From Rhodamnia argentea (Eukaryota; Streptophyta; Magnoliopsida; Myrtales; Myrtaceae): a stretch of DNA of 64,000 bases. The translations under genes and the position numbers were made by a program. Shown piece after piece: positions 2,588-49,945 of this stretch (the stretch's first letter is position 1; each line of letters begins with the position of its first letter). Location of the stretch: positions 16,015,311 to 16,079,310 of the forward strand of contig NC_063155.1 in assembly GCF_020921035.1 (NCBI RefSeq), written 5' to 3'. The notes beneath the pieces are model-generated. The model saw only the letters and a list, made by a program, of their open reading frames with translations. It did no database searches and was not told where the DNA came from.

Positions 2588-2780
2588 GCCCTTTTATAAG
2601 GTAAAGTGCGTCGAAGAAAGCGATGGACTAAGCAGAATCCGCGAGAATTGGATTCAGCTCATAGCTGAATCCAATTTTGGGTAAAGTTCGTCGAAGAAAG
2701 CGATGGACTGCTGAATCCAATTCTCGCGGAGTCTGCTTAGTCCATCGCTTTCTTCGACGAACTTTACCTTATAAAAGGGC
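2588..2780. promoter_or_regulatory. Palindromic promoter of C2 gene A
   Basis: The inverted repeat arms 2588-2658 and 2710-2780 are 71 bp each, with two mismatches seen. Each arm carries the TATA box (TATAAAAGGGC reads rightwards at 2770-2780 and leftwards at 2588-2598). The 51-bp middle holds a third, direct half-copy at 2679-2709. The right TATA box is about 125 bp upstream of the ATG of gene A. The left one would drive transcription leftwards, towards the galactinol synthase 5' fragment. Confidence 0.85.
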
Positions 2781-2895
2781 AGCAGCACACAAACTCAGTC
2801 CTCACGCACTCTAGCTCTCTCATTTCTCGTTCTCACCCTCCCTCTCTCTCAAAACTCCTTCACATTCCCAAGAACCATCCTCAAGCACAGAGGCG

Positions 2896-3582
2896 ATGGC
2901 ATCCGTCGACATAACCATGATCTCAGCCACGAACCTCAAGGCCTGCAATGTCCGCCTCGCTGCCTCCCTCTCCGGCGACCAAAGCGACAACAAGCAGCGC
3001 ACCCCCGTCCACAAGAAAGGCAGCACCGCTAACACCTGGAAGGACCACACCTTCAAATTCACCGTGAGAGAGGCCGCGCCTCTCGGCACCCGCCTCAAGT
3101 TCAAGATCGAGAAGAAGGAGCCCTTCTTGAACCCCTTCTTCTGCTTCAAGAAGGGGTCCTTCTTTGGCCGCAAGACTACTTACGTGGTCGGCGAGGTGGA
3201 TGTGCTTCTGTATGGCCGCGCCGGCGACATGAATCCCACGGTGCGGAGCTGTGAAGTGCGGTCCTCCTCCCTGGAGACCGTGGCCGTTCTCAAATTTTCC
3301 TACAAGTTCTCCGAGCAGTTCCCCGTTGAGGCGCCCCCGGAGCTGGAGGAGGAGACAGTCACGGCTACTCCAGCTGCAGAGCGCCCTCGGACGGGGAACG
3401 CCACTCCCGCCTATTTTCATGTTCCCCGGGCAGGATACGTGCCCGCAGCCACTCCACCGCCGCCCAAGCACCACCCCCGGCGGAACTTCCCGGGGAGGGT
3501 GAGGAACGCGGTGGCCGTGAACGCGATGGCAAGTGTGATCAGTAACCTCGTATTCGAAGGCGGGAATTTTACCGATGCCTAG
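2896..3582 (+). CDS. SRC2-like C2-domain protein A
   Basis: A single-exon gene of 228 aa. Residues 1 to about 140 form a plant SRC2-type C2 domain: an ITMISATNLKACNV start strand, the TPVHKKGSTANTWKDHTFKF core (family pattern T-V-x-K-G-G-T-N-P-x-W), GRKTTYVVGEVDV, and a final VLKFSYKF strand. A Pro/Ala-rich linker and a C-terminal hydrophobic segment (about 200-222) follow, as in SRC2 proteins, which are cold- and stress-linked and bind membranes or partner proteins. Typical calcium-binding aspartates are not evident. Compared with C, D and F it lacks five residues (PVKDL) by a 15-bp in-frame deletion shared with B, which removes part of a conserved strand. GC content is far above the surroundings. 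The start sits after a CT-rich leader about 125 bp from the TATA box. Confidence 0.85.
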   Translation: MASVDITMISATNLKACNVRLAASLSGDQSDNKQRTPVHKKGSTANTWKDHTFKFTVREAAPLGTRLKFKIEKKEPFLNPFFCFKKGSFFGRKTTYVVGEVDVLLYGRAGDMNPTVRSCEVRSSSLETVAVLKFSYKFSEQFPVEAPPELEEETVTATPAAERPRTGNATPAYFHVPRAGYVPAATPPPPKHHPRRNFPGRVRNAVAVNAMASVISNLVFEGGNFTDA

Positions 3583-4622
3583 ATTTGATACTTGAACGAG
3601 TAGTATTCTCGTTCATTTGCTTGCGTGTTTGTTTCGTCTTAAGGCATGTTAAGCTGGTTTCGAGTCCTGTGTCAATTTGTTAAGTCGGGTTTGTTTGGAA
3701 GAGATCTCATCATATGATGAGATTGATGTTTGTCTTGCTACTTCTCGATTCCGAAAGTGACATGTAAAACTTGGATTTTACGGATCCGACACATGTCGCC
3801 CGATCGGGCATCGGCTTGAGTCCGGAGGAGCCTTTTCACAAAATCTTTAAGTGCTACAAAATCTGTGTTTTTTATTCTGACCAAAAGAAAAAAAAAACCC
3901 AAGGTGGTATTATCGTTAGTATAATTATTCCGCTTTCGATTTTTATTTTTTTGGTCGACAAACCAAACAGCTCTTTAGGGGTAAAAGGGAATCTTCCCCA
4001 TTGTTAATATAAGAAATAATCTATGCAAAATACATGTTGGCATAATATCTTGAATAAATGGATATATAGATATTTTATGAATTTGTGGTTGACGATCGAG
4101 AGTTATCGTTATTTCACAATTATATAGAATTGAAGGTGTGATGATGCTTTCGATGGTAAAAGTTCAAGACAAATTAATATCTTTAGATTAAAAATGCATT
4201 TGATTTGAGGTATGGAGTTTATTGTGAAGAAAATTCACCGGGGTTAAAACCTATGTATATGTCGTGAATGTGGCTGTGGAGGACGTAAGCGTAAAGACCC
4301 AGTGAATTTCCGAGAGCAATGTAGAACAAGAAGGGATAGAAAAGACCAAAAAAAGATAATTTGGGACTTGAACGGAATTTCACAAAAGATTGGGGTACAA
4401 TCGCGAAAGTGAAGAATTATTGTTTATGAGATTTAACCATGGATCCACGAGCATGAGCTAAGATACGAGCAACAGAAACACCGCGTGAAAACCTCTTTAA
4501 CATTTCACCCTCCAAATCAATTCTCTCTCTCCTTCAGGAGCGTCAGATTTGTCCATGAACATTGCCATTTGACCGGAGAAATCAGCCGCTGATCCTTCTC
4601 TTTCACCCTCTCATCGTTCGCC
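3583..4622. other. 3' flank of C2-A and upstream region of ECHIDNA copy 1
   Basis: No gene is seen. It is collinear with 37837-38935 and 49946-51001. The part 3890-4330 is the C half of repeat B/C, so this repeat forms part of the ECHIDNA upstream region in all three copies. A TC-rich leader (about 4515-4535) precedes the ECHIDNA ATG. Confidence 0.7.
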
Positions 4623-7090
4623 ATGGATCCCAGCCAGGTGAGTCGAGTCGTCTCTTGTTCTTGTTCGTCGCTGAGTTTGATTTCTGTCGACATGTCCGGG
4701 GTCGATTTGGACGATTTCTGTGTTTTTGCCCAAGTTCGGTTCTCGAGCGTTCCTGTAGGGTGTCGTTCGTGCTTTGGATGTTATCGGTTGGCTCGGTTTT
4801 GCACGATAGCGAGATCTGCCTGCGTCTCGGCGTGTCGGAGTTAGAGCCAGGTCGTTGAGTTGCTCATTCAATTGAGTTAGATTTGAGTTGCGTTACGTCG
4901 TTCAGATGTAGGCACGGGTACAGTCTGGATCTGGAATTAAGAGTAAGAAGGAGAGAAGAAAATGGAGAAGATTTCACCTGAATTTGCTAATCTTTCAGAG
5001 TAGAAGTTAATTGCATGGGAAATCGTGGTGTTTTGGAGTGGACTTACGGATTCTAATTGGTTCTGCTCGTAAATAGATTCTAATTGCTACCTCTTCCTCT
5101 ATATGGAGGAAGCTCCTTAAGCTGAGAACTGAATTTAAGCCCTTGATTAAGTATGGTGTCGTTGGTGGTAACACAATTGCTTTTGGCTGGATCCTTGGCT
5201 TCCTATGGAGGCTTTTCTGGGATGTGTTTCCTCCGAGGGTAGTCTATGATGCTGGATTAGCTCTCAGTGTGAAGGTATCCGATGTGATTGTGAATGGGGC
5301 ATGGCACTGGCCTCCTGCTAGGTCTGAGGACCTAGTTCTTATTGAATCTGTGTCGTGGAATTCAGCCAAATGTTAAGCAATTCAACTGAATCGTCTGGGT
5401 GCCTTTTTCTGCTGGAAGATTTCCTAGTAATAGCTCTTGGAGTAAAATTCAATCTTCAGCTGGTAAAGTGGCCCTGGCATAAGCTAGTTTGGTTTGCTTT
5501 AAACATACCAAACGGCTGTATTAGCTGGCTTGTTATTTTGAAAAGCTGCCTACTAGAGATAGATCAAAGAAAAATCCTTCTTTAATGATGTTTGCCTTCT
5601 CTGTGGATCATTCCCTGAATCTTAGGGTTCATTAATTTGCTCGATGTACTATGTCTTGTAAATTCTCGAGCTTAGTTTATAGTTGTTGTGGTATTCAAAG
5701 AGTTTGGAGTTGGAGTGACGAGATGCAGTGGGCTTGTGCCTAGTAGGAAGGGGAAAGCTATAGCAGATGTTGCTTGCAAGATTGCATGGTGTGATGATAA
5801 TTTTCTTGTTTTAAGTAGTGGTATCATGTCAAGAGTAATCTGTGATGTTTTGTACTGGCTTGGCAACATGCTAACGTGTAATTTACTAGTAAAATACCAG
5901 AGAAGGCAAATCTGCCGTAAGGGACTTATGACTTGAGTTGCTGTATATCTCGAGTCTCGGTTGTTATCCTTTTTGTCATTTGTAGCAGGATAATCCTGCT
6001 TTGTTTATTTGAATAGAACTCATTTGCTTACCTAGCAATAGTTTGTGGTATAGGAGAATTGTATTGCTTAGAAAATTAGTGATCTTTCCATATTTAAACT
6101 TTGTAGGAGGTCAGGACGTAGTGAACTTTTTATCTTTTCATCAACCACAGGTTTAGCAGTTGACATGGGATCCCTGAAGGAGTAATAAAGCTAGATATAC
6201 CCAGGAATAGTGAAGCTTTACCCCTTCTTTCTGGCCTTGAGCTAAAGAGCATTGCGAATGATGGTAAAATTAAGGACTATCGTGCTGTAGGTGTTTGATG
6301 GAAATTGTGCTGCTTTCACTTATCCAGAGTCTGACAGTGGAGTGGACAATTCGATTCTTTTGAAAAATTCATCTCATATGACTTTCTTTGCTATAATCTC
6401 CTATGTCATGGCATAATCTTTTGCTCCTTCCTGCAGCCTGTAGTAGAGAACTACGCCAACCCAAAGACATGTTTCTTTCACGTTATTTTCAAGGTAAAGA
6501 TAGAAGAGTATCTGTAGGAAGTTTTGATAATTTCTAAACCAAGACTTTGGAGTTCTAATGTTCAATATTTCTTTGTCTTGCAGGCTGCTGCTTTGTCATT
6601 TTACATATTATCTGCTCTCTTCTTCGATAATTTTGTCATCATTTTTGTGGTGACGGTCTTCCTTGCTGCTCTAGACTTTTGGGTTGTGAAAAATGTGAGC
6701 GGGCGTATCTTAGTGGGTTTGAGGTGGTGGAATGAGATAGATGATAATGGTGAGAGTGTTTGGAGATTTGAATGCCTTGACCAGGAGGTGAGCTAAGTAA
6801 TGTTGATATTCTAGTTTACTTGCATTGTTTTTGCTCAAAAAATTATCTTTCGGAAGATCTGATTTGTGTCCTTATAAATCCGTTTCCTTATTTTGGTGCT
6901 AGTCATTGGCGCGGATGAATAAGAAAGATTCGTGGTTGTTCTGGTGGACTCTTTACCTTACAGTAAGTTCACATGTCATGACTCGTGCTCGTTGATCTTC
7001 CCTCAGAAATGAAAAACAAACAGCAAAAACAAAATCAAACTCATTTTCTTGCTAGGAGACACAAAGGTAACACATAGGAAGGTCTTGCAT
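4623..7090 (+). pseudogene. ECH: ECHIDNA (TVP23-like), copy 1, truncated after exon 4
   Basis: Exons are 4623-4637 (MDPSQ), 6437-6493, 6584-6787 and 6903-6962, all with GT/AG borders. They encode 112 residues, including YANPKTCFFHVIFK, the two hydrophobic stretches of exon 3, and WWNEIDDNGESVWRFECL. Exons 5 and 6, present at 53738-54325, are missing: homology with the complete copy ends at 7090, inside intron 4. Read-through into the intron stops after about a dozen codons. The product would lack the last membrane segments and the cytosolic tail, so I call it a pseudogene, although its exons are intact and nearly identical to the working copy. It may still be transcribed from its own promoter. 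Confidence 0.85.
5095..5940 (+). mobile_element. LINE 3' fragment in ECHIDNA intron 1
   Basis: The frames WRKLLKLR, then IKYGVVGGNTIAFGW, then ALSVKVSDVIVNGAWHWPPA and KLVWFALNIPN are the zf-RVT (C-terminal) region of plant L1-type LINEs. It has frame breaks and lacks the endonuclease and reverse transcriptase. The same fragment sits at the same place in all three ECHIDNA copies, so it was inserted before the gene was duplicated. Confidence 0.8.
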
Positions 7091-7980
7091 GGGACTGACT
7101 GGAATTTACAACGATCCTGTCTCGGACGAAGATAGTTAAACTCATTCTCCGGATTTGACCCGCGACTTTGTTGCGGGCCCTTCGTCGGGAACTATAGCAA
7201 CAACCTGCAAAGGAAGGGGGTGGGGGGTGACGAATCATTTCTGCGTGCTGATTCCCAAAGATGCGTGAATATTTTAGAAGCGCACGTCTCTGGCTTGCCG
7301 AGCCAATGAAAAAGCTTCCGAGAAGTCCAACTGCTGAAGTTGAACCGACCTGCTTTTATTCCTTTTGTTTCGATGGAAGATTCTTGGATACTCGTGATCT
7401 AGCTCGGGATTTTTTTATTGGTTGGAAGGCTGTCCTCGAATTTTTTCGTCAAGTGGTTTGAACATTCTGACGATAATCGTTTATATCGCTAAAGGGCTTT
7501 TATCTTTCGTGATTCACGTTAACCATCGCGGTATATGTATTTTCTAAAATATATCATTTTCCTCCTTTTTAAATGCTTGAAATTGACCAAAAATCAAACC
7601 GCTCGAACTCACTAAAATAATTCTCTATAGTTAATTTTAAACGCCCAAAAAAAAAAAAAAAACGAAACCTTTTATGATATGCATGTTCATATTTGTATTA
7701 TGTATAATTCGAACGTCTCGCGGGTGCCATGTTAAACGCATGTTAATATGTTAGGAAGAATATTCAACTGCCCCACCACAACAAAAGTTTGGGTTGACAG
7801 AAAATATAGACGACCAAGGTTTGATCCCGCCATCTTGAACAAATGCCAAGTGAAAACCAACATTGGAAAATCCAAGTGTTTCGGTTAACTTCGTGAATCG
7901 AGAAGAAGCAAGACAACATCAATCTCATCATCCGGCAAAATCTCTTCAAACAGATGAAATTTAACAAGAACGAGAATACT
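7091..7980. other. Noncoding spacer after the ECHIDNA break
   Basis: It begins at a junction unique to copies 1 and 2 (7090/7091 and 41403/41404). A 66-codon frame at 7261-7461 is kept in the second copy only because the block is a recent duplicate; it was not recognised. From about 7765 the minus strand is the 3' flank of a C2-type gene. Confidence 0.5.
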
Positions 7981-7984
7981 CGTT

Positions 7985-8500
7985 CACATATCGAATCTAC
8001 ATCAATACCATCCCCTTCATCGGATCCGAGGTTATTGAGCACACTTGTCATCCAGTTCACGAGGACCTCCCTCGCCACCCCCTCCAGGAAGTTCCAGCCG
8101 TGGTGCCGTGGCGGCAGCCCATAAAAATAGGTGGGAGTGGCGTTCGGCACATGTGCCGTCCGGTGGTGCGGTGCGGGTATGCGTGGTGGGTATGGGTACG
8201 CCGCCTGATAATTGGGCACTGCGTTGTGCTGATATGTCATCTGAGGACGGGGCGCTGACGGTGGGTACGGGGTACGCCGCCGGATAATTGGGCGTTGCGT
8301 TGTAGTGATATGCAATCTGAGGGTGGGGTGTTGATGGCCGTTACGGGTACGGGTATGCCTCCGGATAATTGGGCGCTGCGTTGTGCTGATATGCCGTCTG
8401 AGGACGGGGCGTTGATGGCCGGTACGGGTACGGGTAAGGGTCCGGGGTACGTGTGTGTGCGCGTCTGTGTGTGTAAGGCAGAGAACGAGAAATTTCATGG
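7985..8500 (-). pseudogene. SRC2-like tail fragment G (C2 domain lost)
   Basis: On the minus strand the frame reads a Tyr/Pro-rich repeat tail, then AHVPNATPTYFYG, then the hydrophobic end VAREVLVNWMTSVLNNLG, as in the end of C2 gene E. There is no C2 domain: a leader-like TTTCTCGTTCTCTGCC (about 8475-8492), matching the 5' UTR of gene C, is joined almost directly to the tail. The tail is a tandem repeat of about 78 bp (8150-8450, roughly four units) with frame slips between units. The normal stop is lost and the frame reads on into the former 3' UTR. I infer an internal deletion that removed the start codon and the domain. Confidence 0.65.
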
Positions 8501-9471
8501 AAATACGGTCCCCCATTAATTACCGCAGTTCAACTTGGTCATGTGAGGGTGGACCCACATTCATTCTTTGGACCATAGTGCAATTAACAAAAAAATAAAT
8601 AAATCAAGATACAGTGGCCATTGAATATGCCACGTTAGCGTGCTCCGCAATCATCCCTAAACTGCACCTTCATTAATAGTCTCAACAGCAGTTTACCGCG
8701 TTCTTACAAGTCCAATTTTGCGGCAATTGGAAAAATAAAACCTTACTCTTCTCCTAAAGTGTTCCACCTCTTTTGCTTCCTTCTTGCTTCGTTCTCCCTC
8801 GGATCGGCAATTGGCCAGAGACGAGGGCCGACGAGGTCGGCATCGACATCTCGCTCCTCGGCACGGCCAACCTCGCCCTAGCCAATTTTGATGAGAGTTT
8901 TAGTGCGAAAAATTTCGTGTTTCAAACATTATTATGAATTTCATTCCATTATGCCAAACACAATCAATTTATTCATGTATAATCGTCCACCGGCGATTTG
9001 GATCGATTTTTTCTGACCTTTTACCTAATCAAAATATTGTCGCCCAAGTATTTTGACCTTAAAAATCGGGGCATTTGAAAAATTCATTCGTATATCTACA
9101 CATAAAATTGAGTGTGCATGTGCGCACGACAGATATTCAATTGATATTTTTAAATTTCCAAATGACAACTTGCTTAAACTGAAGTAAGCAATTGTTCAGG
9201 TTTATTCAATTTTCCTACTGAAGCTAAGAACTACGGAAATGGGAGCTAAATCTTTGACAAAAAGTCAACAAACTAAAAGAAAATATTGATCTCCATTGAT
9301 GGCCAGTCAAACCATCATAGAAACACAAGACCAAATAAATAAATAAATAAATAAATAAAATTCTTCCGAGTCTTCTCCCATTTTCTCTCTCATGGTTTCT
9401 CTCTCCTCCCTCCTCCGCGCAGTTCCCTCGCCTGAAGAAAACAGCAAGGAAGGAGGGTGAATCGATTGCCA
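8501..9471. other. Intergenic DNA, no gene seen
   Basis: AT-rich, collinear with 42890-43839. It holds an AAAT-type microsatellite near 9337-9359. No element was recognised. Confidence 0.5.
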
Positions 9472-9752: not shown

Positions 9753-10931
9753 GTTCTTGTTTCTCTCTCTCTCTCTCTTCCATTATCTATATGACATATG
9801 CGAATTGTCACCAAAATTTAAATTTCTACGGAACTGAGTTGGGCTCTTTGGTCTATCCATGCTTATTATAGGGAACTGCTGTAAGTATTAAAGTTTCTTT
9901 CTCTGATATATTGGTGTCATTAGTAGGGTCATACCTTTTGGCATGTGATCCTAATGAATTCGGCAAACATTGATGGACCAGATCAAATAATTGATGATAT
10001 AGCTTCATTTTCTGCATTAACACCTTACAGAGATCCCGATGGGCAGTATCATAGTCCTTGGTGTCTGTAGCTGACCGATTTCTTAGTATTATTGTCCATT
10101 CTGGCGCAATGAGAAATCTCTGTTTTCTGGCTTATTAGCATCCCTTTGATCTACTTCTTCTAAGGAAGACGCTAACTTAGTGGCTAACGTAAGATTCACA
10201 AATACTATATTTAACACCTTTTTAACGTTGAATTTATACGATAGAAGAGAAATGTAGGAGCCGATTCCTATTTAGAATCAATTGAATTTTGATTTATATG
10301 TGCACTTTATTTTTTATTTTTATTTTTAAGAAATGTCTTCATTTGTGGTATGTCAGTGCAAATAAGGTAGATACCACTTGTGTCGGTCCTATCGAATTCG
10401 CAACTTCTTTAGTTATCGCATTTTTATCGCAGCATGGTAAGACGGACTTGCAATTATTGATGTTCTCCTCAAGGTCATTATGTATTTTTCTTACCATTCA
10501 CTAAAAGATATGGAAACGTATTCATTTTCCACAAGATGCGCTCGTGAAAAATTGATGATATTAACCATTCAATTAGATGATTTCAGAAAACAAGCAATAC
10601 CGAGGAACCGTATTCGCATGCCTATTGGACCCCAGTTGAAGGGATGATTTTTTTTCGAACCGGTGTTCGGGCATCAGAGTTACTTGCCTCTATTTGCTCA
10701 TAATGTCAAACTGAATTTGATTTATAAAGATCAAATTTGAGATTGCAATAAAAGATAACTTGCTCCTATTTGGCCCCGTCATTTATAGCCCCACATAACA
10801 ATTTAGGTGAATAACTGACTAAAGCTAGGCTCAGTATCCGTGAGCCTGCCTCATCATCCATTCTCTTCCGGGTTCCCGGATCCGAAACACATTGAACAAA
10901 AAGATCTGGTGAAGGTAATGGCTTCGATTTG
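9753..10931. other. Spacer between MED33 and galactinol synthase fragments
   Basis: No gene is seen. The part 9888-10931 occurs again at 19722-20760 and 44263-45306, each time directly before a galactinol synthase fragment. It may be intron or flank of one of the captured genes. Confidence 0.45.
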
Positions 10932-11561
10932 GACAACATTGATTGCCTCTTCGACCTCCCGAACGGTTTCATCTACGCCGTCATGGACTACTTCTGTGAG
11001 AAGACATGGAGCCACACCCCTCGGTACAAAATCAGGTATTGCCAACGGTGCCCCGACGAGGTCCAATGGCTCGACCACGATGGTCCGAAGCCATCTCTCT
11101 ACTTCAACGCCAGCATGTTTGTGTAGCAGCCGAACCTCGACACTTACCATGACTTGCCGGAAACCCTCAAGATCACACTTCCAACTCCATTTGCTGAACA
11201 AGACTCCTTGAACATGTACTTCAAGGACATCTGCAAACCGATTCCTAATGTGTACAACCTCGTGCTCGCATGATTGTGGCGTCACCCCGAGAATATCGAG
11301 CTGGACAAGGTGAAGGTCATTCACTATTGTGCCGCGGGGTCGAAGCCGTGGCGGTACACGGGCAAGGAGGAGAACATGGAAAGGGAAGATATCAAGATGC
11401 TGGTGCAGAAGTGGTGGGATATCTATGATGACGAGTCTTTGGACTATAAGAATATCATGGCCGGAGATGAAGCGGCGAAGCAAACGAAATGGGATCGGTT
11501 CCTTGCGGCATTGGCGGAGGCCGGAGCTTTCCGCTTCATAACCGCCCGTCCGCTGACCTAG
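10932..11561 (+). pseudogene. Galactinol synthase 3' fragment, copy 1
   Basis: The frame reads NIDCLFDLPNGFIYAVMDYF, CEKTWSHTPRYKI, YCQRCPDEVQW, GPKPSLYFNASMFV, HYCAAGSKPWRYTGKEENM and KWWDIYDDESLDYKN, which is the second half of galactinol synthase (GT8 family, UDP-galactose plus myo-inositol to galactinol, first step to raffinose sugars). The N-terminal half with the DxD metal site (YLDGDIQ in the family) is missing; the fragment starts just after it. Two in-frame stops are seen (after SMFV and after NLVLA). A 3' UTR-like stretch and then inverted repeat B follow. The stop after MFV is shared with the copies at 20761 and 45307. Confidence 0.85.
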
Positions 11562-14044: not shown

Positions 14045-14757
14045 GTAGGGAGCATACCAAGTGCGTTCATTCTATATAAATACCCTCCGGCCAAGAGTTC
14101 AATCTCCATCGCAATCTTTTTCGGTTAATTCGTTCAATTCAAGGATAGTTATAATGCCTTGAAGTTCTTTACAACGTCGTTGTAAAGTTTGCTTAACTCT
14201 TTGCGCAGTTTCATGATGTTCCTCACCAATGATTCGATATTTGAGCATAGTTGACGTTGAATCAAAAAAATCTACTGCTGGATAAGTATCTTGAGCAGCT
14301 AAATCCTCTTGATATCGGAACGCATTGATTCATGTCGATGGACCAGTCAAGCACACCGTCTTGAGCCATCATCATATTCCAATCCCATTGGATTGTTTAG
14401 GCTCGTTCATGTCGATCTACCCGTCAAAAGAATTTCTTCCATGTGCATTATTTTTAATTTTTTTTTCAGTTTCCGAATTTCCACGTGCACTGGGAGTATG
14501 CTTTATTTTTTTTTTGTAACGTGTGTGTTTTATTTCCTGGTAAGAGAAAATAATTAAACCAGCGATTCGTTGGTTAATTAACCATAGTTGGTACTCTACC
14601 CGTGTATTTATACAAATTGCAACCATTTCATTACGTCTCAAGCTTCTTTTCATATCAGCATGAGTACCGAGGATTCCATTTCGTTCATGCCCAAGCAAAT
14701 ATAGATCTGCCTTTTGTTCCGGAAAAAGTAAAACCTGAATTTTCTAGCATCTCGATT
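14045..14757 (-). repeat. Dispersed repeat R1, copy b
   Basis: It has the same layout as the copy at 561, with both TATA-like boxes. It ends where the palindromic promoter of C2 gene B begins (14758-14761). Confidence 0.7.
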
Positions 14758-14760
14758 TCG

Positions 14761-15083: not shown

Positions 15084-15108
15084 AGAACCATCCTCAAGCA
15101 CAGAGGCG

Positions 15109-19050: not shown

Positions 19051-19051
19051 A

Positions 19052-36936: not shown

Positions 36937-37170
36937 AAAACTAGTCGGGGGGAAAAAAGGCGAAGGAGAGAGAGAATTTCTTTTTTCTAAAAGGTGGGCT
37001 CACACTATTAATGGAGCTGGGTATTGCTGATGTCGCTCGCTCGCTCCCTCTCTCTCTATATATAGAGACAACCCCCTCAGTCCCTGAGAGACCAAATTTC
37101 TCGTTTCTCCTTTACAGACTCCCTCTCTGTCTCTGTCTCTCTCTCAAAACCATCCTGAAGCGCAGAGATC

Positions 37171-37836
37171 ATGGCGTCCAGGCGTCTGGTGATAACCATT
37201 AGGATTAAGTCGGTCAAGGGCCTCAAGGCCAGCAATGTCCGCCTCGCCGCCTCCCTCTTCGGGGACGAAAGCGACAACAAGCAGCACACCCCCGTCCACA
37301 AGAAAGGCAGCACCACCAACCCCTGGTTCGACCACAGCTTCGAATTCACCGGGGAAAAGGCCGCGCTTCTCGGCACCCACCTCGAGTTCAAGATCGAGAA
37401 GAAGGAGCCTTTCTTGAACACCTTCTTCTGCTTCAAGAAGGGGTCCTCCTTTGGCCGCAAGAGTACTTACGTGGTCGGCAAGGTGGATGTGCCCGTCAAG
37501 GATCTGCTTCCGGATGGCTGCGCCGGCGACATGAATCCCAAAGTGCTGAGCCTCGAAGTGAGGTCGTCCTTCCCGAAGGAGACCAAGGGGAAGGCCATGG
37601 TCGTTCTCGAATTTTCCTACGAGTTCGGCGAGCGGTTCCTCGTCGAGGCGCCCCCGGAGCAGGAGGAGGTGACAGTCCCGACTACTGAAGCTGCAGAGCG
37701 CCATCAGACGGGGAACGCCACTCTGCCGCCGCGCCAGCATCACCTCGGTGGAAACTTCCTGGAAAGGGTGGGGATCGCGGTGGCCGTGGAAGCGATAGCA
37801 AGTGTGCTCAGTAACCTCGTATTCGGTGGCGAGTAG
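37171..37836 (+). CDS. SRC2-like C2-domain protein D
   Basis: A single-exon gene of 221 aa starting MASRRLVITIRIKSVKGLK. The C2 domain (1-155) has HKKGSTTNPWFDHSFEFTGE, GRKSTYVVGKVDVPVKDLLP, and KGKAMVVLEFSYEF. The tail is short: the Pro/Tyr part is reduced, then GNFLERVGIAVAVEAIASVL and the end VFGGE. It forms a subgroup with F and the first half of E (MASR start, EFT after the core). The leader shares the CTCTCTATATA box and the GAGAC leader with E and F, while the palindrome further upstream is its own. A direct repeat of about 95 bp lies in the 3' UTR (37858-38030). Confidence 0.87.
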   Translation: MASRRLVITIRIKSVKGLKASNVRLAASLFGDESDNKQHTPVHKKGSTTNPWFDHSFEFTGEKAALLGTHLEFKIEKKEPFLNTFFCFKKGSSFGRKSTYVVGKVDVPVKDLLPDGCAGDMNPKVLSLEVRSSFPKETKGKAMVVLEFSYEFGERFLVEAPPEQEEVTVPTTEAAERHQTGNATLPPRQHHLGGNFLERVGIAVAVEAIASVLSNLVFGGE

Positions 37837-38935
37837 TATTCTCGTTCATTTGCATGCGTGTTTGTTTCGCCTTAAGATACATTAAGCTGGTTTCGAGTCC
37901 TGTGTCGATTTGTTAAATCTGGTTTGTTTGGAAGCGATCTCATCATGTTTGTTTCGTCTTAAGATACATTAAGCTGGTTTCGAGTCCCGTGTCGATTTAT
38001 TAAATCTAGTTTGTTTGGAAGAGATCTTATCGGATGATGAGACTGATGTTTGTCTTGCTACTTCTCGATTCCGAAAGTGATATGTAAAACTTGGATTTTT
38101 CAGATCCGACACATGTCGCCCGATCGGGCATCGGCTTGAGTCCGGAGGAGCCTTTTCACAAAATCTTTAAGTCCTACAAAATCTGTGTTTTTTATTCTGA
38201 CCAAAAGAAAAAAAAAAACCAAGGTGGTATTATCGTTAGTATAATTATTCTACTTTCGATTTTTTTTTTTTTGGATCGACGAACCAAGGAGCTCTTTAGG
38301 AGTAAAATGGAATTTTCCTCATTGTTAATATAAGAAATAATCTACGCAAAATACATATTGGCATAATATCTTGAATAAATGGATATATAGATATTTTATG
38401 AATTTGTGGTTGACGATCGAGAGTTATCGTTATTTCACAACTATATAGGATTAAAGGCATGATGATGCTTTCGATGGTAAAAGTTCAGCACAAATTAATA
38501 TCTTTAGATTAAAAATGCATTTGATTTGAGGTATGGAGTTTATTGCGAAGAAAATTCACGAAGGCAGGAACCGGGGGTAAAACCTATGTATACGTCGTGA
38601 ATGTGGCTGTGGAGGACGTAAGCGTAAAGACCCAATGAATTTCCGAGAGCAAGAAGGGATAGAAAAGACCAAAAAAAGATGAATTTGGGACTTGAACGGA
38701 ATTTGACAAAAGATTGGGGTACAATTGCGAAAGTGAAGAATTATTGTTTGTGAGATTTAATCATTTAGAGCTAAGAAACGAGCAACAGAAAGACCTCGTG
38801 AAAACCTCTTTAACATTTCACCCTCAAAATCAATTCTCTCTCTCCTTCAGGAGCGTCAGATTTGTTCATGAAGATTGCCGTTTGACCGGAGAAATCAGCC
38901 GCTGATCCTTCTCTTTCACCCTCTCATCGTTCGCC
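37837..38935. other. 3' flank of C2-D and upstream region of ECHIDNA copy 2
   Basis: Collinear with 3583-4622. It includes part C of the composite repeat at 38200-38660. No gene is seen. Confidence 0.65.
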
Positions 38936-41403
38936 ATGGATCCCAGCCAGTTGAGTCGAGTCGTCTCTTGTTCTTGTTCTTCGCTGAGGTTGATTTCTGT
39001 CGACATCTCCGCGGTCGATTTGGTCGATTTCTGTGTTTCTGCCCAAGTTCGGTTCTCGAGCGTTTCTGTAGGGTGTCGTTCGTGCTTTGGATGTTATCGG
39101 TTGGCTCGGTTTTGCACGATAGCGAGATCTGCCTGCGTCTCGGCGTGTCGGAGTTAGAGCCAGGTCGTTGAGTTGCTCATTCAATTGAGTTAGATTTGAG
39201 TTGCGTTACGTCGTTCAGATGTAGGCACGGGTACAGTCTGGATCTGGAATTAAGAGTAAGAAGGAGAGAAGAAAATGGAGAAGATTTCACCTGAATTTGC
39301 TAATCTTTCAGAGTAGAAGTTAATTGCATGGGAAATCGTGGTGTTTTGGAGTGGACTTACGGATTCTAATTGGTTCTGCTCGTAAATAGATTCTAATTGC
39401 TACCTCTTCCTCTATATGGAGGAAGCTCCTTAAGCTGAGAACTGAATTTAAGCCCTTGATTAAGTATGGTGTCGTTGGTGGTAACACAATTGCTTATGGC
39501 TGGATCCTTGGCTTCCTATGGAGGCTTTTCTGGGATGTGTTTCCTCCAAGGGTAGTCTATGATGCTGGATTAGCTCTTAGTGTGAAGGTATCCGATGTGA
39601 TTGTGAATGGGGCATGGCACTGGCCTCCTGCTAGGTCTGAGGACCTAGTTCTTATTGAATCTGTGTCGTGGAATTCAGCCAAATGTTAAGCAATTCAACT
39701 GAATCGTCTGGGTGCCTTTTTCTGCTGGAAGATTTCCTAGTAATAGCTCTTGGAGTAAAATTCAATCTTCAGCTGGTAAAGTGGCCCTGGCATAAGCTAG
39801 TTTGGTTTGCTTTAAACATACCAAACGGCTGTATTAGCTGGCTTGTTATTTTGAAAAGCTGCCTACTAGAGATAGATCAAAGAAAAATCCTTCTTTAATG
39901 ATGTTTGCCTTCTCTGTGGATCATTCCCTGAATCTTAGGGTTCATTAATTTGCTCGATGTACTATGTCTTGTAAATTCTCGAGCTTAGTTTATAGTTGTT
40001 GTGGTATTCAAAGAGTTTGGAGTTGGAGTGACGAGATGCAGTGGGCTTGTGCCTAGTAGGAAGGGGAAAGCTATAGCAGATGTTGCTTGCAAGATTGCAT
40101 GGTGTGATGATAATTTTCTTGTTTTAAGTAGTGTTATCATGTCAAGAGTAATCTGTGATGTTTTGTACTGGCTTGGCAACATGCTAACGTGTAATTTACT
40201 AGTAAAATACCAGAGAAGGCAAATCTGCCGTAAGGGACTTATGACTTGAGTTGCTGTATATCTCGAGTCTCGGTTGTTATCCTTTTTGTCATTTGTAGCA
40301 GGATAATCCTGCTTTGTTTATTTGAATAGAACTCATTTGCTTACCTAGCAATAGTTTGTGGTATTGGAGAATTGTATTGCTTAGAAAATTAGTGATCTTT
40401 CCATATTTAAACTTTGTAGGAGGTCAGGACGTAGTGAACTTTTTATCTTTTCATCAACCACAGGTTTAGCAGTTGACATGGGATCCCTGAAGGAGTAATA
40501 AAGCTAGATATACCCAGGAATAGTGAAGCTTTACCCCTTCTTTCTGGCCTTGAGCTAAAGAGCATTGCGAATGATGGTAAAATTAAGGACTATCGTGCTG
40601 TAGGTGTTTGATGGAAATTGTGCTGCTTTCACTTATCCAGAGTCTGACAGTGGAGTGGACAATTCGATTCTTTTGAAAAATTCATCTCATATGACTTTCT
40701 TTGCTATAATCTCCTATGTCATGGCATAATCTTTTGCTCCTTCCTGCAGCCTGTAGTAGAGAACTACGCCAACCCAAAGACATGTTTCTTTCACGTTATT
40801 TTCAAGGTAAAGATAGAAGAGTATCTGTAGGAAGTTTTGATAATTTCTAAACCAAGACTTTGGAGTTCTAATGTTCAATATTTCTTTGTCTTGCAGGCTG
40901 CTGCTTTGTCATTTTACATATTATCTGCTCTCTTCTTCGATAATTTTGTCATCATTTTTGTGGTGACGGTCTTCCTTGCTGCTCTAGACTTTTGGGTTGT
41001 GAAAAATGTGAGCGGGCGTATCTTAGTGGGTTTGAGGTGGTGGAATGAGATAGATGATAATGGTGAGAGTGTTTGGAGATTTGAATGCCTTGACCAGGAG
41101 GTGAGCTAAGTAATGTTGATATTCTAGTTTACTTGCATTGTTTTTGCTCAAAAAATTATCTTTTGGAAGATCTGATTTGTGTCCTTATAAATCCGTTTCC
41201 TTATTTTGGTGCTAGTCATTGGCGCGGATGAATAAGAAAGATTCGTGGTTGTTCTGGTGGACTCTTTACCTTACAGTAAGTTCACATGTCATGACTCGTG
41301 CTCGTTGATCTTCCCTCAGAAATGAAAAACAAACAGCAAAAACAAAATCAAACTCATTTTCTTGCTAGGAGACACAAAGGTAACACATAGGAAGGTCTTG
41401 CAT
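38936..41403 (+). pseudogene. ECH: ECHIDNA (TVP23-like), copy 2, truncated and with a lost splice donor
   Basis: Exons are 38936-38950, 40750-40806, 40897-41100 and 41216-41275, with the same sequence as copy 1. The first donor reads TTGAGT instead of GTGAGT, as in the other two copies, so exon 1 should not be spliced normally. As in copy 1, homology with the complete gene stops inside intron 4, at 41403, and exons 5 and 6 are absent. Coding differences from copy 1 are very few, which points to a recent duplication. Confidence 0.88.
39408..40253 (+). mobile_element. LINE 3' fragment in ECHIDNA copy 2 intron
   Basis: The counterpart of 5095-5940, same insertion point and ends. Confidence 0.78.
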
Positions 41404-42364
41404 GGGACTGACTGGAATTTACAACGATCCTGTCTCGGACGAAGATAGTTAAACTCATTCTCCGGATTTGACCCGCGACTTTGTTGCGGGCCTTTCGTCG
41501 GGAACTATAGCAACAACCTGCAAAGGAAGGGGGTGGGGGGTGACGAATCATTTCTGCGTGCCGATTCCCAAAGATGCGTGAATATTTTAGAAGCGCACGT
41601 CTCTGGCTTGCCGAGCCAATGAAAAAGCTTCCGAGAAGTCCAACTGCTGAAGTTGAACCGACCTGCTTTTTTTCCTTTTGTTTCGATGGAAGATTCTTGG
41701 ATACTCGTGATCTAGCTCGGGATTTTTTTATTGGTTGGAAGGCTGTCCTCGAATTTTTTCGTCACGTGGTTAGAACATTCTGACGATAATCGTTTATATC
41801 GCTAAAGGGCTTTTATCTTTCGTGATTCACGTTAACCATCGCGGTATATGTATTTTCTAAAATATATCATTTTCCTCCTTTTTAAACGCTTGAAATTGAC
41901 CAAAACTCAAACCGCTCGAACTCACTAAAATAATTCTCTATAGTTAATTTTAAACGCCCAAAAAGAAAAAAAAAAACGAAATCTTTTATGATATGCATGT
42001 CCATATTTGTATTATGTATAATTCGAACGTCTCGCGGGTGCCATGTTAAACGCATGTTAATATGTTAGGAAGAATATTCAACTGCCCCACCACAACAAAA
42101 GTTTGGGTTGACAGAAAATATAGACGACCAAGGTTTGATCCCGCCATCTTGAACAAATGCCAAGTGAAAACCAACATTGGAAAATCCAAGTGTTTCGGAT
42201 AACTTCGTGAATCGAGAAGGAGCAAGACAACATCAATCTCATCATCCGGCAAAATCTCTTCAAACAGATGAAATTTAACAAGTCGACACGTAACTCAAAC
42301 CGACTTAACATACCTAAGACAAAACAAATAAGTATGCAAATGAACGAGAATACTCGTTCACATA
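41404..42364. other. Spacer after ECHIDNA copy 2
   Basis: Collinear with 7091-7984. No gene was recognised. The last part is the 3' flank of fragment H. Confidence 0.5.
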
Positions 42365-42880
42365 TCAGATCTACATCAATACCATCCCCTTCATCGGATC
42401 CGAGGTTATTGAGCACACTCGTCATCCAGTTCACGAGGACCTCCCTCGCCACCCCCTTCGGGAAGTTCCGGCCGGGGTGCCGTGGCGGCGGCCCATAAAA
42501 ATAGGTGGGAGTGGCGTTTGGCACATGTGCCGTATGGTGGTGCGGTGCGGGTATGCGTGGTGGGTACGGGTACGCCGCCGGATAATTGGGCACTGCGTTG
42601 AGCCGATATGTCATCCGAGGACGGGGCGCCGACGGTGGGTACGAGTACACCGCCGGATAATTGGGCGCTGCGTTGTGGTGATATGCAATCCGAGGGTGGG
42701 GTGTTGATGGCCGGCACGGGTACGGGTACGGGTACACCCCCGGATAATTGGGCGCTGCGTTGTGCTGATATGCCGTCTAAGGGCGGGGCGTTGATGGCCG
42801 GTACGGGTACGGGTACGGATACGTGTGTGCGCGTGTTTGTGTGTGTAAGGCAGAGAACGAGAAATTTCATGGAAATACCG
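42365..42880 (-). pseudogene. SRC2-like tail fragment H (C2 domain lost)
   Basis: The second copy of fragment G, with a better tail frame: PSTPHPRIAYHHNAAPNYPA, then MTYRLNAVPNYPAAYPYPP, AHVPNATPTYFYG, and EVLVNWMTSVLNNLGSDEG. The tandem unit (about 78 bp) repeats roughly four times at 42540-42820. The leader fragment TTTCTCGTTCTCTGCC lies near 42858, directly before the tail. There is no ATG-C2 part, and the stop is lost into the 3' UTR. H keeps a stretch of about 60 bp of 3' UTR (42281-42340) that G has lost. Confidence 0.65.
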
Positions 42881-43839
42881 TCCCCCATTAATTCCCACAA
42901 TTCAGCTTGGTCATGTGGGGGGTACCCACATTCATTCTTTGGACCATAGTGCAATTAACAAAAAAATAAATAAATCAAGATACAGTGGCCATTGAGTATG
43001 CCAAATTAGCGTGCTCCGCAATGATCTCTAAATACACCTTCATTAATAGTCTCAACGGCAGTTTACAGCGTTCGTAAGCCCAATTTTGCGGCAATTGGAA
43101 AAATAAAACCTTACACTTCTCCTAAGGTGTTCTACCTCTTTTGCTTCCTTCTTGCTTCGCTCTCCCTCGGATCGGCAACCGACCAGAGGCAAGGGCCGAC
43201 GAGGTCGGCATCGACATCTCGCTGCTCGGCATAGCCGACCTCACCCTAGCCAGTTTTGATATGATCTTTCATATCATTAAGTGCGAAAAATTTCGTGTTT
43301 CAAACATTTATATGAATTTCATTCCATTATGCCAAACACAATCAATTTGTTCATGTATAATCGTCCACCATTGATTTGGATCGATTATTTCTGACCTTTT
43401 ACCCAATTTAAATGTTGTCGCCCATGTATTTTGACCTTAAAAATCGAGGCATTTGAAATATTCATTCGTATATCTACACATGAAATTGTGCGCGCATGTG
43501 CGTACGATAGATATTCAATTGATATTTTTAAATTTCCAAAGGATAACTTGCTTAAACTGAAGTAAGCAATTGTTCAGGTTTATTCAATTTTCCTACTGAA
43601 GCTAAGAACTACGGAAATGGGAGCTAAATCTTTGACCAAAAGTCAACAAACTAAAAGAAAATATTGATCTCCATTGATGGCCAGTCAAACCACCATAGAA
43701 ACACAAGATCAAATAAATAAATAAATAAAATTCTTCCGAGTCTTCTCCGATTTTCTCTATCATGGTTTCTCTCTCCTCCCTCCTCTGCGCAGTTCCCTCG
43801 CCTGAAGAAAACAGCAAGGAAGGAGGGGGAATCCATCGC
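42881..43839. other. Intergenic DNA, no gene seen
   Basis: Collinear with 8501-9471. Confidence 0.5.
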
Positions 43840-44122: not shown

Positions 44123-45306
44123 GTTCTTGTTTCCCTCTCTCTCTCTTCCATTATCTATATGACATATGCGAATTGTCACCAATATTTATATTTCTACGGA
44201 ACTGAGTTGGGCTCTTTGGTCTGTCCATGCTTATTATAGGGAACTGCTGTAAGTATTACAGTTTCTTTCTCTGATACATTGGTGTCATTAGTAGGGTCGT
44301 ACCTTTTGGCATGTGATCCTAATGAATTCGGCAAACATTGATGGACCAGATCAAATAATTGATGATATAGCTTCATTTTCTGCATTAACAACACCTTACA
44401 GAGATCCCGATGGGCAGTATCATAGTGCTTGGTGTCTGTAGCTGACCGATTTCTTAGTATTATTGTCCATTCTGGCGCAATGAGAAACCTCTGTTTTCTG
44501 GCTTATTAGCATCCCTTTGATCTGCTTTTTCTAAAGAAGACGTTAACTTAGTGGCTAACGTAAGATTCACAAATACTATATTTAACACGTTTTTAACGTT
44601 GAATTTATACGATAGACGAGAAATGTAGGAGCAGATTCCTATTTAGAATCAATGGAATTTTGATTTATATGTGCATTTTATTTTTTATTTTATTTTTTAA
44701 GAAATGTCTTCATTTGTGGTATGTCGGCGCAAATAAGGTAGATACCACCTGTGTCGGTCCTATCGAATTTGTAACTTCTTTAGTTATCGCATTTTTATCG
44801 CAGCATGGTAAGAACTAAGACGGACCCGCAATTATTGATGTTCTCCTCGTGGTCGTTATGTATTTTTCTTACCATTCACTAAAAGATATAGAAACGTATT
44901 CATTTTCCACAAGATGCGCTCGTGAAAGATTGATGATATTAACCATTCAATTAGATGATTTCGGAAAACAAGCAATACTAAGGAACCGTATTCGCATGCC
45001 TATTGGACCCCAGTTGAAGGGATGATTTTTTTTTGAACCAGTGTTCGGCCATCAGAGTTGCATGCTTCTATTTGCTCATAATGTCAAACTGAATTTGATT
45101 TATAAAGATCAAATTCGAGATTGCAATAAAAGATAACTTGCTCCTATTTGGCCCCGTCATTTATAGCCCCACATAACAATTTAGGTGAATGATAGACTGA
45201 AGCTGGGCTCTATATCTGTGAGCCTGCCTCATTATCCATTCTCTTCCGGGTTCCTGGATCTCAAACACATTGAACAACAAGATCTGGTGAAGATAATGGC
45301 TTCGAT
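44123..45306. other. Spacer before galactinol synthase fragment, copy 3
   Basis: Collinear with 9753-10931. No gene is seen. Confidence 0.45.
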
Positions 45307-45939
45307 TCGGAGAACATCGACCGCCTCTTCGACCTCCCGAACGGTTTCTTCTACGCCGTCGTGGACCGCTTCTGTGAGAAGACATGGAGCCACACCCCTC
45401 GGTACAAAATCGGGTATTGCCAATAGTGCCCCGACGAGGTCCAATGGCTCGACCACGTTGGTCCAAAGCCGTCTCTCTACTTCAACGCCGGCATGTTTGT
45501 GTAGCAGCCGAACCTCGACACTTACCATGACTTGCTGGAAACCGTCAAGATCACACTTCCGACTCCATTTGCTGAACAAGACTTCTTGAACGTGTACTTC
45601 AAGGACATCTACAAACCGATTCCTAATGTGTACAACCTTGTGCTCGCGTGGTTGTGGCGTCACCCCGAGAATATCGAGTTGGACAAGGTGAAGGTCGTTC
45701 ACTATTGTGCCGCGGGGTCGAAGCCGTGGCAGTATACGGGCAAGGAGGAGAACATGGAAAGGGAAGATATCAAGATGCTGGTGAAGAAGTGGTGGGATAT
45801 CTATGATGACGAGTCTTTGGACTATAAGAATTTCGTGGCCAGAGATGAAGTGGCAAAACAAACGAAATGGGATCGGTTTCTTGCCGCGTTGGCGGAGGCC
45901 CGAGCTTTCCACTTCATAACCGCCCTGTCCGCAGCCTAA
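45307..45939 (+). pseudogene. Galactinol synthase 3' fragment, copy 3
   Basis: The frame reads ENIDRLFDLPNGFFYAVVDR, CEKTWSHTPRYKIGYCQ, FNAGMFV, DLLETVKITLPTPFAEQDFL, NVYNLVLAWLWRHPEN and the normal-looking C-terminus ending SAA. It keeps the stop after MFV shared by all three copies and has one of its own after GYCQ, but lacks the second stop of copy 1. The DxD half is missing. This is the best preserved of the three 3' fragments. Confidence 0.85.
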
Positions 45940-48184: not shown

Positions 48185-48889
48185 TCACAGGTTATCGAAC
48201 GCATCTGTTATCACGTTCACGGCAGCCGCGATCCCCGCCCTCCCCAGCAAGTTCCAGCCGGGGAGCGGCCGCTGCGGCAGCAGGGCTGCAGGCACATATG
48301 CCATCTGATGGTGCAGTGCAGGTATGGGTGGTCGGTACGGGTTTGCCGCCGGAAAATTGGGCGCGGCGTTCTGCGGATATGCAACCGGAGGGGAGCGCAT
48401 GGGTGGCACGTATGGTTCGGACAGCGTCGCTGCAGCTTGAGTAGCCGTCACTGTCTCCTCCTGCTCGCAGAACTCGTAGGAAAATTTGAGAACGGCCATG
48501 GTCTTCCCCTTGGTCCACACTTGGCAGCTCAGCAACTTGGCCTCCATGACGCCGGTGCAGCCCTTCTCAAGCAGATCCTTGACGGACACATCCACCTCGC
48601 CGACCACGTAAGTAGTCTTGCGGCCAAAGAAGGACCCCTTCTTGAAGCAGAAGAAGGTGTTCTTCTTCTCGATCTTGAACTCGAGGCGGGTGTCGAGAAG
48701 CGCGGCCTCTTCCACGGTGAATTCAAAGGTGTGGCCCAACCAGGGGTCGGTGGTGCTGCCTTTCTTGTGGACGGGGGTGCGCTGCTTCTTGTCGCTCTGG
48801 TCGCCGGAGAGGGAGACGACTAGGTAGACACCGTGGGCCTTGAGGTACTTGACCGACTTAATGGTTATCACCAGATGCCTGGACGCCAT
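48185..48889 (-). CDS. SRC2-like C2-domain protein E
   Basis: 234 aa, minus strand, ATG at 48889 (the start shared with F and D: MASRHLVITIKSVKYLKAHG); a longer upstream frame is 5' UTR. The first 104 or so residues match F apart from a single Ser/Pro change. The second half is different: LEKGCTGVMEAKLLSCQV, then a Tyr/Pro tail (PVAYPQNAAPNFPAANPYRP) of the G/H type, and the end AGIAAAVNVITDAFDNL. The stop falls early compared with C. It lacks the residues EPFLNP found in A-D. It looks like a chimera of an F-like 5' half and a B/G-like 3' half. It shares a head-to-head promoter with F. Confidence 0.85.
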   Translation of the reverse strand: MASRHLVITIKSVKYLKAHGVYLVVSLSGDQSDKKQRTPVHKKGSTTDPWLGHTFEFTVEEAALLDTRLEFKIEKKNTFFCFKKGSFFGRKTTYVVGEVDVSVKDLLEKGCTGVMEAKLLSCQVWTKGKTMAVLKFSYEFCEQEETVTATQAAATLSEPYVPPMRSPPVAYPQNAAPNFPAANPYRPPIPALHHQMAYVPAALLPQRPLPGWNLLGRAGIAAAVNVITDAFDNL

Positions 48890-49300
48890 GATCTCTGCGC
48901 TCCAGGATGGTTTTGAGAGAGAGAGGGAGTTTGTAAAGGAGAAACGAGAAATTCGGTCTCTGAGGGACTGAGAGGGGGTCGTCTCTGTATATAGAGAGAG
49001 GGAGCTGATCTCCTTGGTGCGGGGCATTCTCGTCATTCCTCGGGAGCTGATCTCCGATCTCCTTGGTGCGGGGCAGTCTCGTCATTCCTCGGGAGCTGAT
49101 CTCCGATCGATCTCCTTGGTGCGGGGCAGTCTCGTCATTCCTCGGGAGCTGATCTCCGATCGATCTCCTTGGTGCGGGGCAGTCTCGTCATTCCTCGGGA
49201 TCTCCTTGGTGCGGGGCAGTCTCGTCATTCCTCGGGAGCTGATGACTTGGCTCCCTCTCTCTATATACAGAGACGACCCCCTCTCAGTCCCTCAGAGATC
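48890..49300. promoter_or_regulatory. Bidirectional promoter of C2 genes E and F with central minisatellite
   Basis: Both genes have the same TATA box and leader as inverted copies (CTCTCTATATACAGAGACGA; minus-strand box at 48988-48993, plus-strand box at 49262-49267). Between them (49002-49245) are five direct copies of a 37-53 bp unit containing CTTGGTGCGGGGCAGTCTCG. E has an extra leader of about 60 bp (48900-48960) that F lacks. Confidence 0.9.
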
Positions 49301-49945
49301 ATGGCGTCCAGGCATCTGGTGATAACCATTAAGTCGGTCAAGTACCTCAAGGCCCACGGTGTCTACCTAGTCGTCTCCCTCTCCGGCGACCAGAGCGACA
49401 AGAAGCAGCGCACCCCCGTCCACAAGAAAGGCAGCACCACCGACCCCTGGTTGGGCCACACCTTTGAATTCACCGTGGAAGAGGCCGCGCTTCTCGACAC
49501 CCGCCTCGAGTTCAAGATCGAGAAGAAGAACACCTTCTTCTGCTTCAAGAAGGGGTCCTTCTTTGGCCGCAAGACTACTTACGTGGTCGGCGAGGTGGAT
49601 GTGCCCGTCAAGGATCTGCTTCCGGATGGCTGCGCCGGCGACATGAATCCCAAGGTGCTGAGCCGCGAAGTGAGGTCGTCCTCCCCGAAGAAGACCATTC
49701 TCGAATTTTCCTGCGAGTTCGGCGAGCGGTTCCTCGTCGAGGCGCCCCTGGAGCTGGAGGAGGAGATAGTCACGACTACTGAAGCTGCAGAGCGCCATCA
49801 GACGGGGAACGCCACTCCGCCGCCGCCCCAGCATCACCCCGGCCGGAACTTCCTGGGGAGGGTGGGGATCGCCGTGGCCGTGCGCGCGATAGCAAGTGTG
49901 TTCAGTAACCTCGTATTCGACAGCGAGGATTTTACTGATGTCTAG
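49301..49945 (+). CDS. SRC2-like C2-domain protein F
   Basis: A single-exon gene of 214 aa. ATG 49301 is chosen over the upstream in-frame start at 49169 because it matches D and E and lies 35 bp after the TATA box region. C2 domain: HKKGSTTDPWLGHTFEF, KKNTFFCFKKGSFFGRKTTY, GEVDVPVKDLLPDG, TILEFSCEF. It then has an acidic EAPLELEEEI stretch, a short linker, GRNFLGRVGIAVAVRAIASV and the end FDSEDFTDV. The second half follows D. Like E it lacks EPFLNP. The very short distance between TATA box and ATG (about 35-40 bp) leaves almost no leader, so the true start of transcription could lie further upstream. Confidence 0.85.
   Translation: MASRHLVITIKSVKYLKAHGVYLVVSLSGDQSDKKQRTPVHKKGSTTDPWLGHTFEFTVEEAALLDTRLEFKIEKKNTFFCFKKGSFFGRKTTYVVGEVDVPVKDLLPDGCAGDMNPKVLSREVRSSSPKKTILEFSCEFGERFLVEAPLELEEEIVTTTEAAERHQTGNATPPPPQHHPGRNFLGRVGIAVAVRAIASVFSNLVFDSEDFTDV

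Follow-up and report, generated by a model that had tools for sequence, protein, structure and literature searches.

Promoter palindromes in a tandem cluster of SRC2-like C2 genes of Rhodamnia argentea

Genes and palindromes of the cluster

The window analyzed here is a 64,000-nucleotide stretch of the 346.7-Mb genome of Rhodamnia argentea (C6:16015311-16079310), and positions are those of the window unless prefixed with C6. The window covers part of a cluster of SRC2-like C2 genes of approximately 154 kb, in which several promoters carry palindromes at or near the TATA box. When protein C was used as the query, 23 matches were found in the genome: 22 on C6 at 15.91-16.07 Mb, several of them pieces of single genes, and one at 17.28 Mb. 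The protein encoded at the latter site is of the SRC2 type and has a long tail rich in proline and glycine; its gene may resemble the founder of the cluster. The neighborhood was joined into a 204-kb stretch with 17 promoters, those of genes A-F within the window and of g1-g11 beyond it.

Protein searches place genes A (2896-3582, 228 aa), B (15109-15783, 224 aa), D (37171-37836, 221 aa) and F (49301-49945, 214 aa) on the plus strand, together with gene C (31089-31790, 233 aa). Gene E (48185-48889) is on the minus strand. The C2 domain of Pfam is recognized above the cut-off in C, E, and F, barely so in C; D scores below it, and A and B have no match at an E-value <= 0.01. The six proteins align with each other, and C and E also align with the SRC2-type gene at 17.28 Mb. 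The labels TATA, bZIP/G-box, and zinc knuckle are used here for sequences that resemble such motifs.

Inverted-repeat scans located palindromes at or near the TATA boxes of A, B, C, D, and the E/F pair, as the sequence-only reading had proposed. Its statement that the arms differ by zero to two mismatches is correct for A, B, C, and E/F; D has four. The arms of palindrome A (71 nt, 2 mismatches) are at 2588-2658 on the minus strand, with an inverted TATA box, and at 2710-2780 on the plus strand, where the arm end is the TATAAAAGGGC of gene A. A third partial copy of the arm, in direct orientation relative to the left arm, lies between them (2680-2709, minus). Palindrome C (41 nt, 1 mismatch) has a similar organization, with a left arm containing an inverted TATA box (30840-30880, minus), a third partial arm copy (30894-30920, minus), and a right arm that contains the TATA box of gene C (30925-30965, plus). 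Palindrome B is formed of two nested pairs of arms. The inner arms (92 nt, 0 mismatches) are at 14838-14929 (minus, inverted TATA box) and 14933-15024 (plus, TATA box inside), and the right one has no second full-length match genome-wide. The outer arms (57 nt, 1 mismatch) correspond to the 5' untranslated region (UTR) of gene B (15031-15087, plus) and its mirror image (14757-14813, minus). The arms of palindrome D (36764-36831 and 36870-36937, 68 nt) are positioned 5' of the TATA box, which lies outside them. The E/F palindrome contains coding arms of 329 nt with 1 mismatch (48569-48897, minus, on the E side; 49293-49621, plus, on the F side) and promoter arms of 49 nt without mismatches (48957-49005, minus; 49250-49298, plus), separated by a spacer (49007-49243) with direct repeats spaced approximately 53 bp apart.

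Enrichment of repeats at family promoters

The palindromes are genuine and far above chance. None of 100 dinucleotide shuffles of each of the promoters A-F reached the observed score, with shuffle maxima of 11-13. Outside the window, g1 (37 nt, 0 mismatches), g4 (39 nt, 0 mismatches), and g9 (32 nt, 0 mismatches) are palindromic, the palindrome of g11 is decayed (24 nt, 1 mismatch), and that of g7 is short (15 nt, 0 mismatches). The promoters of g2, g3, g5, g6, g8, and g10 contain no inverted repeat above the shuffles. In the shuffle test the starts of g7, g10, and g11 were placed 6-11 nt 5' of the ATG; corrected starts were used in the comparison of gene E described below.

Low-complexity arms were filtered from the shuffle test and from the scans of the neighborhood, the family promoters, and the controls. 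After merging, the 204-kb neighborhood has 15 inverted-repeat sites (score >=22, loop <=400), eight of which lie in the 600-bp upstream region of a family gene (P=0.003, circular shifts of gene positions). Inverted repeats with a score >=20 are present in 9/17 family promoters, in 15/603 background windows of the cluster, in 0/122 windows sampled at nine non-cluster loci, and in 1/12 SAUR promoters (nominal Fisher P 0.019). The count of nine excludes F, which shares the palindrome of E but was missed because the scan ended at -50. All P values are nominal, since the background windows overlap, the genes are paralogous, and the SAUR set was hand-picked from a hit list. Scored in this way against shuffles and another gene family, as the sequence-only reading had suggested, the family promoters show an excess over the shuffles, the background windows, and the SAUR promoters. 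The 600 bp upstream of the SRC2-type gene at 17.28 Mb contain no inverted repeat.

Direct repeats, whose enrichment the sequence-only reading had missed, reach a score >=20 in 13/17 family promoters, compared to 53/603 cluster windows, 5/122 outside windows, and 1/12 SAUR promoters. Repeats of either orientation are found in 14/17 family promoters, 10.3% of cluster windows, and 2/12 SAUR promoters. Part of the direct-repeat signal in palindromic promoters comes from the third arm copy. Long direct repeats are also present in the non-palindromic promoters of g10 (C6:16004430, minus; score 148) and g6 (C6:15940662, minus; score 57). The joint enrichment indicates that a hot spot yields repeats of both orientations, and that the palindromes are its most visible product.

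Two inverted repeats of similar sequence (GCCCCTACAACCTGGGCATTAAT) are positioned away from promoters, at 18838-19051 and C6:15963038-15963394; they may belong to a small foldback element or a miniature inverted-repeat transposable element (MITE).

Palindromes of A, C, g4, and g11

The left flanks of A, C, g4, and g11 are homologous over at least 850 bp with 90-93% identity, and those of g4 and g11 over 2.2 kb. In the window, this flank is at 1760-2587 next to palindrome A and, with approximately 90% identity to it, at 30021-30837 next to palindrome C (both plus strand). The final 300 bp of the left flank are 94-97% identical among the four loci, and the right UTRs 90-96%. Among the 40 of 236 candidate flank copies that were scored, four span at least positions 1-825 of 828, all upstream of A, C, g4, and g11, and seven further copies from the cluster end at positions 537-539.

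The arms at the four loci have the same join points and the same TATA-bearing first segment. The TATA-bearing arm end, GCCCTTTTATAAGG, occurs seven times in the whole genome, always within the palindromes of A, C, g4, and g11. The common flanks, join points, and outer arms indicate that the four loci inherited one ancestral palindrome. The centers, taken as the sequence beyond the outermost 40 nt on either side, do not follow this pattern: five of the six pairs among the four loci score within the shuffled range, and the remaining pair, C-g11, slightly exceeds the shuffled maximum. At A and g4 the inner arms are symmetrical and specific to each locus. The structure is therefore more conserved than the sequence in this comparison among paralogues, most weakly so at g11. 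Judged by these alignments, the palindrome structure of A, C, g4, and g11 is inherited, and the centers are rewritten locus by locus.

A TATA-bearing outer arm is common to A, B, and C, and a TATA box is present in both arms at A, C, g4, g11, and B. Palindrome B differs from A and C in that it runs outward through the 5'UTR, ending 21 bp before the ATG, and adjoins a different left flank, which is common to B and g7. The earlier claim that arms differ greatly between loci thus describes the centers, which are mostly unalignable, but not the outer arms of A, B, and C, nor the common ancestry of the A, C, g4, and g11 palindromes.

At C6:15867251 the left flank has a diverged copy, which can be aligned up to the left edge of the palindrome (TTTATATCGT...) and is unrelated past it, so the edge is a join point. 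This fits an inverted promoter copy having been attached there. An AGC overlap at the join point, seen by eye, is suggestive only.

The head-to-head pair E/F

The sequence-only reading regarded the E/F pair as the original state and the other palindromes as relics from which the left gene had been lost. The comparison of gene segments, from which the apparently truncated g8 was omitted, does not support this. Over the first 318 aligned nucleotides the identity of E and F rounds to 1.00, in agreement with the single mismatch in the 329-nt arms. At 430-700, E is only 77% identical to F and 85-91% identical to g1, g3, g6, and g10, whereas F is 98% identical to g2. At 700-960, E has 90-93% identity to g1, g3, g6, and g10 and 92% to g7 and B. 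A 59-bp piece of the 5'UTR (48898-48956) is present in E and, by eye, in g2, but is missing from F. Gene E is thus evidently a chimera, whose 5' end is of the F type and whose 3' part most resembles the g1/g3/g6/g10 subfamily. The symmetry of E/F is accordingly a derived one, with a mixed history behind it, and the pair has no support as the ancestral arrangement.

A head-to-head position between opposed paralogues is found only at E/F; at the palindromes of A, B, C, and D the left partner gene is lacking. The left flanks of A, C, g4, and g11 are duplicated DNA containing no open reading frame (ORF) over 85 aa, although several copies share two frames, of 55 and 67 aa, that lack an ATG start. 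A left minus-strand gene is still present 4.3 kb away at g4 and 3.2 kb away at g11, and its promoter looks unrelated by eye. A lost left gene was rejected for A and C on the grounds that their left flank is duplicated DNA without an ORF of this size. The exception is B, where the left arm mirrors the 5'UTR, as would be expected of a lost left gene; mirrored coding sequence was not seen there.

Palindromes of apparently separate birth

The palindromes of D, g9, g1, and E/F appear to have arisen separately. The right arm of g9 includes the 16-mer GGGGGATGATGTGGCT. The g5 promoter carries this 16-mer at the corresponding place and with unchanged orientation, and has a second copy further upstream. 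The g5 promoter has no inverted repeat, and the left arm of g9 is therefore likely to be the new, inverted copy. The genes g2, g5, g9, and D align closely from the TATA box downstream and poorly just upstream of it, except for a short piece still common to g9 and g5 and partly to D. The TATA box is not included in the palindromes of D, g9, and g1. An inverted copy of nearby sequence that a related locus lacks, as expected of template switching, is found both for the left arm of g9 compared with g5 and for the F-like 5' end of E compared with the g1/g3/g6/g10 subfamily.

The two origins offered by the sequence-only reading as alternatives, separate births and arm-to-arm conversion, both seem to occur: the former at g9, D, g1, and E/F, while the rewriting of centers at A, C, g4, and g11 fits the latter.

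Surrounding sequences

The window contains two segmental duplications, 3626-7968 / 37946-42282 (97.4%) and 3448-7090 / 49811-53471 (95.8%). Their boundaries lie within C2 genes or at gene ends; consequently, A, D, and F are more alike in their downstream DNA than in their 5' halves. The minus-strand sequences at 7764-8516 and 42078-42888 are related ORFs or relics whose resemblance to gene E is confined to its C-terminal tail. Both lack a C2 domain and are positioned where two duplicated blocks meet; the first has no Pfam match.

A 1.5-kb sequence is present in three copies with 92-93% identity (9891-11380, 19722-21209, and 44260-45758), perhaps a mobile element. The ORF at 21861-22388 contains a CCHC zinc-knuckle-like motif, CFNCNKVGHLGKDC, and by eye resembles retrotransposon gag. 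Two stretches, 56883-57422 and 58125-58580, encode Agenet domains; the 600 bp 5' of each contain no inverted repeat, and those of the second contain a direct repeat with a score of 21.

Origin of the palindromes

We consider it rather probable that inverted copies arise beside the TATA box, and are made symmetrical again, through recurrent foldback or replication template switching. The stretch just upstream of the TATA box would be a hot spot of local rearrangement in the tandem SRC2-like family. A strand end, from a stalled fork or a break, would fold back or switch to the opposite template, and promoter-proximal DNA would be copied in inverted orientation to form a palindrome. Later arm-to-arm switches would overwrite differences and may import new center sequence onto both arms, so that symmetry is kept while the sequence turns over; related slips at the same place would generate direct repeats. 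Tandem duplication would spread the palindrome-bearing promoters, with A, C, g4, and g11 the heirs of one. This scheme brings together the observed shared flanks, homologous outer arms, mostly unalignable centers, chimeric gene E, and the right arm that g9 has in common with the non-palindromic g5. The route would be a foldback or template switch, not gene conversion by recombination; no selected function would be required. Template switching has been described to create and fix hairpins (PMC8794818) and to homogenize their arms (PMC8604942), and in yeast assays quasi-palindrome events were reported only under high transcription (PMC3820800). The palindromes are probably a striking case of such known copying errors rewiring promoters, with no dedicated function.

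Several observations weigh against this explanation. At 34 outer-arm sites, the arms within a locus differ by 1 at A and by 0 at C and B, compared to 3-5 differences between A and either C or B. However, the left arms of C, B, and g4 are only 1-2 of these sites apart, and the concerted signal of the outer arms consequently depends on A and is weak. Homogenization is not universal: the arms of g11 differ by 6 mismatches and 2 gap columns, and the right arm of g4 is partly deleted. The third partial arm copy in the centers of A, C, and, by eye, g11 indicates that the center is partly recycled arm and not wholly new. The longest exact matches of the centers elsewhere in the cluster are 11-13 nt, as in shuffled sequence, with the exception of g9 (16 nt, in g5). 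For the arms of A, B, and D no source was found elsewhere in the genome, and a template for every new segment was not found. At 320-430, gene E is 95% identical to both g1 and g2, and its history is thus more mixed than a single exchange. The occurrence of a TATA box in each arm of the A, C, g4, g11, and B palindromes would be compatible with selection for two promoters as well. Stronger evidence than the weak outer-arm signal comes from the locus-specific symmetrical inner sequences, which lie between near-identical flanks.

Selection could have favored bidirectional promoters, in which two outward-firing TATA boxes are useful and ordinary arm-to-arm gene conversion preserves both. This is unlikely, even though both TATA boxes are retained at five loci and E/F is a real head-to-head pair with perfect 49-nt promoter arms. 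The palindromes of D, g9, and g1 exclude the TATA box, the centers are mostly unalignable, and the left flank contains no ORF over 85 aa. With a flank divergence of 3-6%, an intact 14-nt left TATA end at four loci is, by our estimate, unsurprising.

Wholly independent inverted duplications without later homogenization would account for the apparently unrelated arms of D, g9, g1, and E/F and for the lack of further genomic copies of the complete A, B, and D arms. The join points and outer arms shared by A, C, g4, and g11 contradict this for those four loci, and as a general explanation it is improbable. We give equally little credence to a self-renewing regulatory cassette. In such a cassette the mirror layout and the paired TATA boxes would be preserved by selection or a local mutational bias, and the sequence inside would be exchanged symmetrically, as one block. 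If it did exist, each tandem copy would gain a new divergent promoter while keeping the old one, and symmetry itself would be the conserved trait. The sequences TGACGTCA, in the center of C and the arms of D, and CCACGTGG, in g1, resemble what we take to be bZIP/G-box sites, but they are not common across the set.

It is very unlikely that the palindromes are hairpin small-RNA loci, the transcription of which would produce double-stranded RNA that silences the family. The predicted single-strand folds of A and B (-90 and -124 kcal/mol with DNA parameters, against a mean of approximately -19 for 50 mononucleotide shuffles each) are strong because of the symmetry, and plant miRNA genes can originate by inverted duplication (PMC3237417). 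However, Rfam has no match in the window at gathering scores, and the arms are mostly promoter rather than mRNA, with the exceptions of the B outer arms and E/F. Messenger RNAs starting 3' of the right TATA box would leave out the palindromes of A and C, and since the two TATA boxes point apart, neither predicted transcript would hold both arms. The small-RNA role suggested by the sequence-only reading is therefore disfavored.

An insertion of terminal-inverted-repeat (TIR) transposable elements at the promoters is hardly credible: the flanking DNA is duplicated in the cluster and part of it is dispersed, but the arms of A, B, and C include the gene's own TATA box. A TIR transposon or MITE origin was rejected for A, B, and D, as no dispersed copies were found in a genome-wide search that covered the complete arms of these three loci and the shared arm end. 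Foldback reads can produce false palindromes, but an assembly or long-read artefact is just as implausible in view of the short arms, their mismatches, the join points common to four loci, the third arm copies, and the diverged arms of g11.

Relation to known systems and implications

Inverted repeats between divergent paralogues of Caenorhabditis are described as more conserved in structure than in sequence (Zhao et al. 2007, PMC1803023). The same holds for A, C, g4, and g11, and E/F is much like the pair CBG13231/CBG13232, whose first 297 nt are reported to be 100% identical and whose C-termini have diverged (PMC1803023). The Caenorhabditis arms lie between two paralogous genes and were compared among species, whereas the palindromes described here mostly belong to single genes, lie at or near the TATA box, and were compared among the tandem paralogues of one plant. 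The one-event reverse-complement copies and arm homogenization of template-switch hairpins resemble those proposed here, but the accounts in PMC8794818, PMC8604942, and PMC3820800 concern RNA genes, yeast coding genes, and reporter assays, whereas the promoter arms of the cluster are longer, recur in one family, and have replaced centers. By analogy, the cluster works like these template-switch and Caenorhabditis cases.

Foldback inverted duplications after double-strand breaks likewise involve an inverted copy primed from a folded-back end, although as described in PMC10622511 they are chromosome rearrangements of yeast mutants, unlike promoter arms. Sex-chromosome palindromes are reported to keep their arms alike within a locus by conversion (PMC8981503, PMC7023750), as may occur here; those are large, while the arms reported here measure approximately 40 to 430 bp and are positioned at promoters. 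The SRC2-like C2 genes of maize are, like those of this family, mostly intronless (13/15; PMC12989361), and the terms "tandem", "inverted", and "palindrom" do not occur in the main text of that paper. No description of promoter palindromes in SRC2 genes was present among the literature matches listed, which comprised titles and abstract openings and had most subscription journals outside their coverage.

The features new to this cluster are the location at single-gene promoters, a TATA box inside the arms or close to them, what look like several births within one family, and inheritance with replaced centers. The series of paralogous promoters displays birth (g9, E/F), inheritance (A, C, g4, g11), center replacement, and decay (g11) side by side, and makes promoter template switching testable in a plant. 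It also indicates that young tandem duplicates can lose most of the sequence they share just 5' of the TATA box while their coding and flanking DNA is still approximately 80-97% alike.

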